A stretch of 10,593 bases of DNA from Acidimicrobiaceae bacterium. GTDB taxonomy: Bacteria > Actinomycetota > Acidimicrobiia > Acidimicrobiales > Ilumatobacteraceae. A program made the translations under genes and the position numbers. The stretch's first letter is position 1, and every line of letters begins with the position of its first letter. The stretch covers positions 1 through 10,593 of the forward strand of contig CANKVI010000029.1 in the NCBI GenBank assembly GCA_947487095.1, written 5' to 3'. Below the pieces are notes generated by a model. That model ran no database searches. It was not told the DNA's origin and saw only the letters and a list, made by a program, of their open reading frames with translations. Positions 6,765-9,965 of this stretch are shown here, piece by piece.

Positions 6765-8351
6765 ATGGCTGAAACCCCTCAAGACCGCCAGACCGACTCT
6801 GGCATCACCATTAATCCGTTGTATACAGCCGAATCGCTGGGTGCCTTCGACCCGGCAACCTCGCTTGGTGCTCCTGGTCAACAGCCATACACCCGCGGCA
6901 TTTACCCAACCATGCACCGCGACCGCTTGTGGACCATGCGTCAGTACGCGGGCTTCGGAAGTGCAGCCGACACCAATCAACGATTTAAGTTTTTGCTCGA
7001 GGCTGGTCAAACAGGACTCAGTTGCGCATTCGACTTGCCAACGCAAATGGGTTACGACAGCGATCATGCACGTTCGGCTGGCGAAGTAGGAAAAGTTGGC
7101 GTTGCCATTGACTCACTTGACGACATGCGCACTCTGCTTGCCGACTTGCCGCTCGACAAAGTCACCACATCAATGACAATCAACTCAACGGCTGCAATCT
7201 TGCTGTTGATGTACGAGTTGGTTGCAGAAGAGCGCGGTGTGCCAAGCACGGCAATTAGTGGCACCATTCAAAATGACTTGCTGAAGGAGTACATTGCGCG
7301 CGGCACCTATGTGTATCCGCCTAAGCCTTCAATGCGCATCATTACCAACATTTTTGAGTACTGCTCAAAGAACGTTCCGAAGTGGAACACCATTTCCATT
7401 TCCGGTTACCACATTCGCGAAGCTGGAAGCACGGCAGTACAAGAACTCGCGTTCACGTTGTCGAACGCCATTGCTTACGTGCAAGCAGCAATTGATGCTG
7501 GTCTCGATGTGGATGACATTGGTCCACGTCTCAGCTTCTTCTGGAATGGTCACAACAACTTCTTCGAAGAAGTAGCCAAGTTCCGCGCCAGTCGCCGCAT
7601 GTGGCACGACATCATGACCAATCGTTTTGGCGCGAAGAAGGAAGCAAGCAAACTGATGCGCTTCCACACACAAACTGGTGGTTCAACACTTACTGCGCAG
7701 CAACCGTTGAACAATGTGGTGCGCGTGGCTGTACAAAGCATGGCTGCGGTGTTGGGTGGAACGCAAAGCCTCCACACCAACGGTTACGACGAAGCACTCA
7801 GCTTGCCAACCGAAGAAGCGGCACGCATTGCATTGCGCACACAGCAGATCATTGGTTACGAAAGCGGAGTCACCGACACACCAGACCCACTTGCAGGTTC
7901 GTACTTTGTTGAATCACTAACGAATGAAGTTGAGCGATTGGCATACGAATACATTGCGCGCATCGACGAGATGGGCGGGGCGGTGCAGGCCATTGAAGCC
8001 GGTTTCCAAATGGATGAAATTGAAGAAGCCGCATACAGCTATACGAAGTCGATCGACGATCAGACTCGCGTTTTGGTTGGCGTCAACAAGTTCACGGTGG
8101 AAAACGAGCCAGAGCCAAAAATTACGCCACCAATTCCTGGATTGGAACAAGGTCAGGTCGACCGCCTTACGAAGTACAAGGCAAGCCGCGATATGGCGTT
8201 GGTTACGGTAAAGCTCGATGCTTTGCGCGAAGCCGCAAGAGGCACGGGCAACGTCTTGCACCCAATGAAAGAAGCCTTGCGGGCCAGTGCAACACTTGGC
8301 GAAGTAAGCGACGCGTTGCGCGACGTTTTTGGCGTGTACCGCCCGGGCTGA
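6765..8351 (+). CDS. Methylmalonyl-CoA mutase large (catalytic) subunit, split type
   Basis: A 528-residue acyl-CoA mutase barrel that, with B12, would interconvert methylmalonyl-CoA and succinyl-CoA in propionate, odd-chain fatty acid or branched amino acid metabolism. Motifs include [10 protein letters not shown] (41-50), [11 protein letters not shown] (55-65), [13 protein letters not shown] (89-101), [21 protein letters not shown] (about 166-186) and [11 protein letters not shown] (211-221), with H216 at the radical-chemistry His (H244 of the Propionibacterium enzyme). Residues separating the subfamilies are Y61 (Y89) and R179 (R207). These fit methylmalonyl-CoA rather than isobutyryl-CoA mutase (Phe, Gln) or 2-hydroxyisobutyryl-CoA mutase (Ile, Gln). 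The protein ends after the barrel and linker, without the DxHxxG cobalamin-binding domain, so a separate small subunit of about 130-150 residues must be encoded elsewhere. The start at ATG 6765 lacks a Shine-Dalgarno site and looks leaderless. Its TGA abuts the convergent nitroreductase stop with no base between. Confidence 0.93.
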
Positions 8352-8906
8352 TTAGTTGAAGTACGTGATTGCGGGCACTGGGCGTTCGCGGTCTGGAATG
8401 TCGCGATTCGGCCAACCCAAGTACAACATTGCCGTGATGTGTGTGCCTTCAGGCCAACCACAGTGCTTTGCAACATCGTCGTTTGCGCCCTTCGGGCAAC
8501 TGGACCAAAAACTGCCAAGGCCCATCGCGGTGGCGCCAAGCAACATGTTTTGAATTCCTGCAGACACCGCATCGCGGTTTTCTTCGGTTTGTAGTTCCGA
8601 TTCACCTTGCAAGGTGCCAACGACAACGATCACCGGTGCGCGCAAATACTTGGTGCGCGTTTTCGTCACTTTCATTTCGGTGTCGCCATGGCGCTGCATT
8701 GCTTCGGCAGTTGCATCGCCAAGGGCACGACGAGCATCGCCGGTAAACACACCGAACAACCACGGCCAGGTGAGTTGATGGTTTGGCGCCCACGCCGCAA
8801 CATCACACAACTTGTTAATCAAGTCCATGTCCACCTCGCGCTCGAGGTCCATCATCAATTGCGTGCGGCGTGCAATTACTAGCTTGCGGAAATCGTCAAA
8901 CACCAT
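8352..8906 (-). CDS. Nitroreductase family protein, YdjA-like
   Basis: A 184-residue FMN-dependent oxidoreductase of the nitroreductase fold, close in length and layout to E. coli YdjA (183 residues). Features are an N-terminal IARRTQLMM segment (about 11-19; paired Arg that bind FMN phosphate), AAWAPNHQLTWPWLFGVF (about 37-54; compare APDHK..QPW in YdjA), a central helical region including NMLLGATAMGLGSFWSS, a YLGWP segment near the end, and a C-terminal PAITYFN tail like FVTYF in YdjA. It probably acts as a homodimer using NAD(P)H; the natural substrate is not known. The ATG at 8906 lies 15 nt after the dapD stop, without a strong Shine-Dalgarno site. It is the last gene of the lysS-dapD unit, and its stop is flush with the mutase stop. 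Confidence 0.88.
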   Translation of the reverse strand: MVFDDFRKLVIARRTQLMMDLEREVDMDLINKLCDVAAWAPNHQLTWPWLFGVFTGDARRALGDATAEAMQRHGDTEMKVTKTRTKYLRAPVIVVVGTLQGESELQTEENRDAVSAGIQNMLLGATAMGLGSFWSSCPKGANDDVAKHCGWPEGTHITAMLYLGWPNRDIPDRERPVPAITYFN

Positions 8907-8921
8907 GGCGACAGACTATTG

Positions 8922-9965
8922 CTAGTTCTTGTGCAATGCGGCGTTGAGGCCGCCCCAGCTGCCGGTGCGCTGCACCACTTCAACTGCACCTGTCAGGCTG
9001 TTGCGACGGAAGAGAATGTCGTTTGCGCCGGAGAGTTCGCGTGCTTTTACCGTTGCACCGTCTGGCAGTTTTACTTGCGTGCCAGCAGTTACATACAGGC
9101 CGGCTTCAACAACGCAATTGTTACCTAGTGAAATTCCAAGGCCACTGTTTGCGCCTAACAAGCACTTCTCGCCAACGGTCACCATTTCTTTTCCGCCACC
9201 GGAAAGCGTGCCCATGATTGATGCGCCGCCGCCAATGTCAGAACCGTCGCCAACAACAACGCCTGCAGAAATTCTGCCTTCCACCATTGATGCGCCCAGT
9301 GTTCCCGCATTGAAGTTGCAGAAACCTTCGTGCATCACGGTGGTGCCACTTGCAAGGTGAGCACCTAAGCGAACGCGGCTTGCATCGGCAATGCGCACAC
9401 CGCCCACCATGGAAGCGCCAAGTGTTCCCGCATTGAAGTTGCAGAAACCTTCGTGCATCACGGTGGTGCCACTTGCAAGGTGAGCACCTAAGCGAACGCG
9501 GCTTGCATCGGCAATGCGCACACCGCTTGGCACTACGTAGTCGGTCATGCGAGGAAACTTATCGACACCGTTCACTACCAGTTGTTGGCCTTGCTTCAGT
9601 TGGTTGTAACGCACGTCTTCAAGAGCGTCCAGTGCAACAGGCCCAATGGAGGTCCAGGCAACGTTGGCAAGCAAACCAAACGCACCATCCAAATTCACTG
9701 TGCGTGGCTTGGCAAGTCGGTGCGACAGCAAGTGCAAACGCAAGTACACGTCGCTGGCACTGGTTGGTGCAGCGGTAGTGTCAATGACTAACGAAGTAGG
9801 AACAAGCGAAACTCCCCGACGCGGGTCGGTATGAGTCTGCGACTCAGTTGGCGTTCCTGCAGGAACTGCTTCGCCCAAGCCAAGGTGGCGGAAGTAGGTG
9901 TCGAGTGTGGTGCCGTCTGCTGCAACAGTTGCAATGCCAACGCCCCATGCCTGTGTTGTGCTCAT
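8922..9965 (-). CDS. dapD: Tetrahydrodipicolinate N-succinyltransferase with internal 41-residue tandem duplication
   Basis: DapD transfers succinyl from succinyl-CoA to tetrahydrodipicolinate in the succinylase route to meso-diaminopimelate and lysine. The 347-residue product has an N-terminal domain (about 1-145), a left-handed beta-helix of hexapeptide repeats (about 148-310) and a short tail ending [13 protein letters not shown], all resembling the mycobacterial-type enzyme (about 317 residues). Family motifs are [53 protein letters not shown] and [14 protein letters not shown]. Residues 148-188 are repeated as 189-229, so the H-E-G-F motif, whose Glu is thought to act in catalysis, appears twice (E172 and E213). 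Without the extra 41 residues the length would be 306, normal for the family. The frame stays intact. ATG 9965 lies 2 nt after the lysS stop (TAACGATG), so it is clearly in an operon with lysS. Whether the enlarged enzyme is active, or the repeat is an assembly error, cannot be told here. Confidence 0.93.
9281..9403. repeat. 123-bp tandem repeat within dapD, copy 2 in gene order
   Basis: This copy directly abuts 9404-9526. The two are 120/123 identical: 9298-9403 matches 9421-9526 base for base, and the three differences (9288, 9291, 9297) are all third-codon-position, synonymous changes (TCA/TCC, GCA/GCT, CTG/CTT). It encodes residues 189-229, whose last residue is Glu as in normal DapD (SMVEGRI). 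Confidence 0.97.
9404..9526. repeat. 123-bp tandem repeat within dapD, copy 1 in gene order
   Basis: This copy encodes residues 148-188 of DapD. At the junction with the other copy (9403/9404) a hybrid Gly codon (G from GTGG, GC from GCGGT) joins the copies in frame. The flanks lose identity at once (9280 against 9403 and 9404 against 9527 differ), so the duplication is a single clean unit of 41 codons. Confidence 0.97.

Follow-up and report, generated by a model that had tools for sequence, protein, structure and literature searches.

The dapD gene in the analysed DNA (the window, meaning the whole stretch of 10,593 nucleotides) is written with a 123-bp segment repeated in tandem, and this feature is most likely not biological. 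The duplication is probably an assembly artefact, in which overlapping pieces from two strain variants were joined end to end. Inside the gene, one 123-bp unit occupies 9281-9403 and a second abuts it at 9404-9526. The features on which the argument depends are listed below.

8922..9965, minus strand: dapD as written, encoding tetrahydrodipicolinate N-succinyltransferase of 347 aa, that is, the 306-aa type plus 41 duplicated residues (TIGR03535, 3fsx, length in relatives).
9404..9526, minus strand: copy A of the 123-bp unit, upstream in the gene (TRF, repeat finder, alignment).
9281..9403, minus strand: copy B of the 123-bp unit, downstream in the gene (TRF, repeat finder, alignment).
9403..9404, no strand: blunt junction between the copies, without microhomology (matched-run check).
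9288..9297, minus strand: three silent differences, at 9288, 9291 and 9297 in copy B (copy A counterparts 9411, 9414 and 9420).

The presence of the repeat in the sequence letters is confirmed. TRF and the repeat finder agree on a period of 123 and 2.0 copies over 9281-9526, which bears out the two abutting units proposed by an earlier interpretation of the letters alone (the sequence-only reading). Copies A and B are identical at 120 of the 123 bases, and the mismatch pairs (9288/9411, 9291/9414 and 9297/9420) correspond to coding-strand unit positions 116, 113 and 107. All three fall on third bases of four-fold codons (TCA/TCC, GCA/GCT and CTG/CTT) and are silent, and the first 106 bases on the coding strand are identical between the units; the same cluster of synonymous changes beside 106 identical bp had been described in the sequence-only reading. 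If changes are placed evenly over the 41 third positions, the chance that all three fall within 4 of the 41 codons is about 0.011. Sequencing error was considered as the source of the mismatches and set aside: all are silent, which is rare for random errors, and strain variants would fit better.

The matched run is exactly 123 bases, with zero bases common to both copies past either unit edge, and the short shared bases that mark slippage are absent from the edges (matched run minus period is 0). None of the other 12 direct-repeat families listed by the repeat finder in the window exceeds 23 nt, which places the 123-bp repeat far beyond chance. The reading frame stays open through both copies. 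The unit had been described as 41 codons, and its length of 123 bp agrees with this; its edges, however, fall within codons, so that the doubled residues are approximately 148-188 and 189-229. Copy A ends in ...Ser-Met-Val-Gly-Gly, and copy B runs on into the native Glu-Gly-Arg (...Val-Glu-Gly).

Apart from the repeat, the gene is an ordinary actinobacterial DapD. Its product reaches 522.3 bits against NCBIfam TIGR03535 (DapD_actino; curated cut-off, 441.5), with the match in two stretches. The best PDB match is 3fsx, identified as the DapD of Mycobacterium tuberculosis in the available part of PMC3281039, and 5e3p is also among the closest actinobacterial DapD structures. The same source describes the family as a trimeric enzyme with active sites between subunits. 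According to Pfam, the neighbouring genes encode a UDP-galactopyranose mutase, a glycosyltransferase with a GlfT2-type domain, a protein with SpoIID and peptidoglycan-binding domains, an EamA transporter, a class II aldolase/adducin-type protein, a methylmalonyl-CoA mutase, a nitroreductase and a class II tRNA synthetase. In loci L002 and L004 (11492-11860), about 370 additional bases separate the mutase gene from the nitroreductase gene; the window lacks them at 8351-8353.

In the relatives examined, the unit occurs once. A comparison with the DapD of close relatives, which the sequence-only reading had proposed as a check, gave a single unit in all 80 genome_contigs loci. The genus search covered 23 genomes, with a match in 16 and none in 7; 13 of the 16 are clearly single-copy, in that two query halves overlap on one contig, and three (G006, G012 and G015) are too partial. 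Genomes G001-G004 of this search are also counted among the 80 loci. The best 120 of 8000 scored nearest proteins are all 304-311 aa long, and in an alignment of 20 of them the nearest reach 97-99% identity to the window protein over shared columns. Another search scored only residues 146-232, where a doubled protein would be expected to rank first; among its best 120 of 8000 scored proteins, no protein reaches both high coverage and high identity, and 13 sequences fetched from this listing, including every row above 80% coverage, are single-copy by reading. The window's own protein appears in neither listing (best 120 of 8000 scored in each).

The closest genome loci, L001-L003, share 86-91% DNA identity with the window where they align; for L001 and L002 this is most of the window, for L003 its right end. 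The flanks were also compared for a change of nearest relative at the junction. Upstream of the unit, L239 (89.1%) and L001 (88.4%) are nearest, and downstream L002 (89.7%), a difference too small for use.

The protein P0022 (306 aa) matches the window's group over its first two thirds and a more distant DapD over its last third, and is possibly a chimeric assembly or a recombinant. P0128 (235 aa) closes with a run of residues unlike DapD, which we take to resemble a translated sequencing adapter. P0152 (297 aa) is a DapD without one stretch that its relatives carry. DapD-like proteins of about 49-60% identity also occur in the phage-labelled records MT835995.1, OQ572403.1 and MT836793.1, where their genes may be host DNA or carried genes.

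The preferred explanation proposes that two pieces of one locus, derived from two strain variants of one species, overlapped by about one final k-mer. Abutting these pieces end to end would write the overlap twice, and the real gene would then encode an ordinary 306-aa DapD. A fork in the assembly graph may arise where two variants coincide for more than 100 bases and then diverge, which would explain the silent differences beside a long identical block.

The length of the unit gives this idea its specific form. In the available parts of the papers concerned, the MEGAHIT k-list 23,43,63,83,103,123 is given for metatranscriptomes at the DOE JGI (PMC6243002), for metagenomes (PMC6081815, PMC5839234) and, together with SPAdes with a last k of 127, in PMC6646334. 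The period of 123 equals the last k of this published JGI MEGAHIT recipe, and we infer the same final k for the present contig, as the product of a short-read metagenome assembly in which some program step abutted pieces. JGI origin alone would not imply k=123, since PMC6243002 is metatranscriptomic and PMC6646334 also includes SPAdes with 127. In the accessible text of the COBRA paper (PMC10914622), contigs from MEGAHIT and metaSPAdes share end sequences with a length of exactly maxK in most simulated cases of repeat fragmentation, and the simulations included within-population variation.

Several observations argue for a join of two assembled pieces. Besides the single copy in the relatives examined and the clustered silent differences, they include the blunt junction, the agreement of the period with a published final k and two parallels in other contigs (L080 and L542). 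Copy A lacks the mapped catalytic Glu, and 41 residues would break the hexapeptide step of the beta-helix. The sequence-only reading had considered a real enlargement but judged that the clustered differences fit a haplotype join or gene conversion better; the present evidence leans towards the join, with the period of 123, the blunt junction and the two parallels as additional grounds. Against it stand the lack of Ns at the junction, the difference at 3 of 123 bases in a k-overlap that should be exact, and the absence of tandem duplications of 60-400 bp from 4.07 Mb of IMG/VR loci. The frame is also kept as in a living gene, although 123 is divisible by 3 anyway and a duplication of this length is in frame by arithmetic alone. 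No MEGAHIT step is known to us by which contigs are abutted, which also counts against the join.

The active site was mapped by aligning the single-copy relative P0001 with 3r5a, with residue roles taken from the Pseudomonas aeruginosa DapD as given in the available part of PMC3281039. Asp168, Asn209, Glu221, Arg223, Ala226 and Ser241 correspond to Asp135, Asn176, Glu188, Arg190, Ala193 and Ser208 in single-copy numbering, where the shift of 33 assumes three extra chain residues. In P. aeruginosa, Glu221 is proposed to deprotonate the substrate amino group (PMC3281039). The mapped Glu is that of M-V-E-G-R, immediately after the unit, and copy A has Gly at that position; Glu is found there in all 79 translated relatives (the 80 loci minus one that was too short or lay too close to a contig end). 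The sequence-only reading had described HEGF, with its Glu, as an active-site segment. This motif is invariant in 79 of 79 translated relatives, yet its Glu is not the mapped one, which lies just outside the unit. The mapped substrate residues are retained in copy B and its flank, apart from Asp135, which now adjoins copy A; with this upstream Asp included, the set is complete.

The beta-helix register is probably not kept across the duplication, as judged from the spacing of residues in the chain, although the sequence-only reading had suggested that it might be. Aliphatic residues recur every six positions (151, 157, 163, 169 and 187, with Cys at 175 and Thr at 181). The junction imposes a step of 5 (187 to 192), and 41 is not a multiple of 6 or 18. 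This argument is only moderate, because the native helix is irregular too, with a step of 4 (187 to 191) right after the unit. Structure prediction, another check proposed earlier, favours neither reading: the AlphaFold2 mean pLDDT was 38.2 for the 347-aa protein vs 46.1 for the 306-aa relative P0001 as control, and both values are poor, including that of the intact control.

Comparison DNA comprising 7,524,036 bases in 654 loci, with overlaps counted, was scanned for tandem repeats of 60-400 bp period whose copies are at least 90% identical. Such repeats are rare, and six distinct ones pass this filter: L080 (87 bp), L542 (142 bp), L529, L543 and L599 (69 bp each) and L270 (63 bp). The 69-bp repeats, with 2.13, 2.65 and 3.12 copies as a set, lie in open low-complexity stretches. 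L270 is a 63-bp pair, alike at 56 of 61 bases, in a phage record titled complete genome, and for this reason two copies alone do not imply an artefact. Besides that of the window, two-copy duplications more than 95% alike and without extra bases number two in these 7.5 Mb, L080 and L542. In the 392 IMG/VR loci (4,073,795 bases, overlapping contigs counted twice), no tandem duplication of 60-400 bp period was found; the same loci hold four of 45-54 bp. This null result is neutral with regard to the k-mer idea and weighs mildly against such an artefact being frequent.

The strongest alternative, which nevertheless appears unlikely, is that one strain recently underwent a genuine in-frame tandem duplication and that later recombination with a neighbouring strain, across the end of a single copy, introduced the silent differences. 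Copy B keeps the active-site Asn, Glu and Arg, and the enzyme might work with approximately two extra beta-helix coils. The frame open through both copies and the retention of the mapped substrate residues other than Asp135 are consistent with such an origin, and near-perfect tandem repeats of at least 60 bp do exist in the genus (the three of 69 bp, one of them with only 2.13 copies). Nevertheless, the duplication is not seen in the relatives examined (best 120 of 8000 proteins, genome loci and genus genomes), and its edges are blunt and lack the short shared bases that slippage would be expected to leave. The clustering of the differences needs a second event, and 41 residues correspond to no integral number of hexapeptides or coils. 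It is correspondingly doubtful that a real strain carries a 347-aa DapD formed by a very recent off-hexapeptide doubling, with copy A lacking the mapped Glu and copy B holding the catalytic set.

A chimera of two molecules from library preparation or amplification (PCR or whole-genome), faithfully assembled and thus an artefact of the sample, not of the assembler, is very improbable: it would suit the blunt junction and the two alleles and would explain junction k-mers present in reads, but it would have had to displace the true form in the assembly and leaves unexplained why the period equals an assembler k.

The two outcomes carry different implications. If the repeat is an assembly artefact, blunt two-copy duplications of assembler-k length within conserved genes need checking before they are given an evolutionary reading. 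If it is true, doubling of a core segment out of step with the hexapeptide repeat can be accommodated by a trimeric beta-helix enzyme, and the gene would show, as an experiment of nature, how far 41 inserted residues are tolerated by an essential enzyme of left-handed beta-helix fold.

The preferred reading, a join of two assembled pieces, has its closest counterparts in other contigs. L080 (10290-10454), from a deposited MAG contig with a SPAdes-style name, is clearly an unmerged contig overlap and the only such overlap among 45 N runs examined. It resembles the window in that an assembled contig contains the overlap as two neighbouring copies, and differs in its length of 78 bp, its exact match and the 9 Ns between the copies, which the 78 exact bases flank on both sides. 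L542 (2221-2504; G003:C16), seen again as L607, is probably an unmerged overlap of the same kind. Like the window's repeat it is blunt, with 2.00 copies and few differences between them (five), and its region is single-copy in four relatives (G001, G002, G004 and G022), with G016, G017 and G020 matched only partly. Its differences are the length of 142 bp, the broken frame of a Peptidase_S13 (PF02113) gene in a genus member, and the fact that four of the five differences change a residue.

The contig joins by k-mer overlap treated in the available text of PMC10914622 share with the window two copies, blunt edges and, for the published final k of 123, the length; the ends there are exact, whereas the overlap in the window has three mismatches. 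With regard to the enzyme, the window protein lies above the cut-off for actinobacterial DapD (TIGR03535; 3fsx, 5e3p), and the two aligned stretches together span it. It departs from that family in that 41 beta-helix residues, single in the relatives examined, are present twice.
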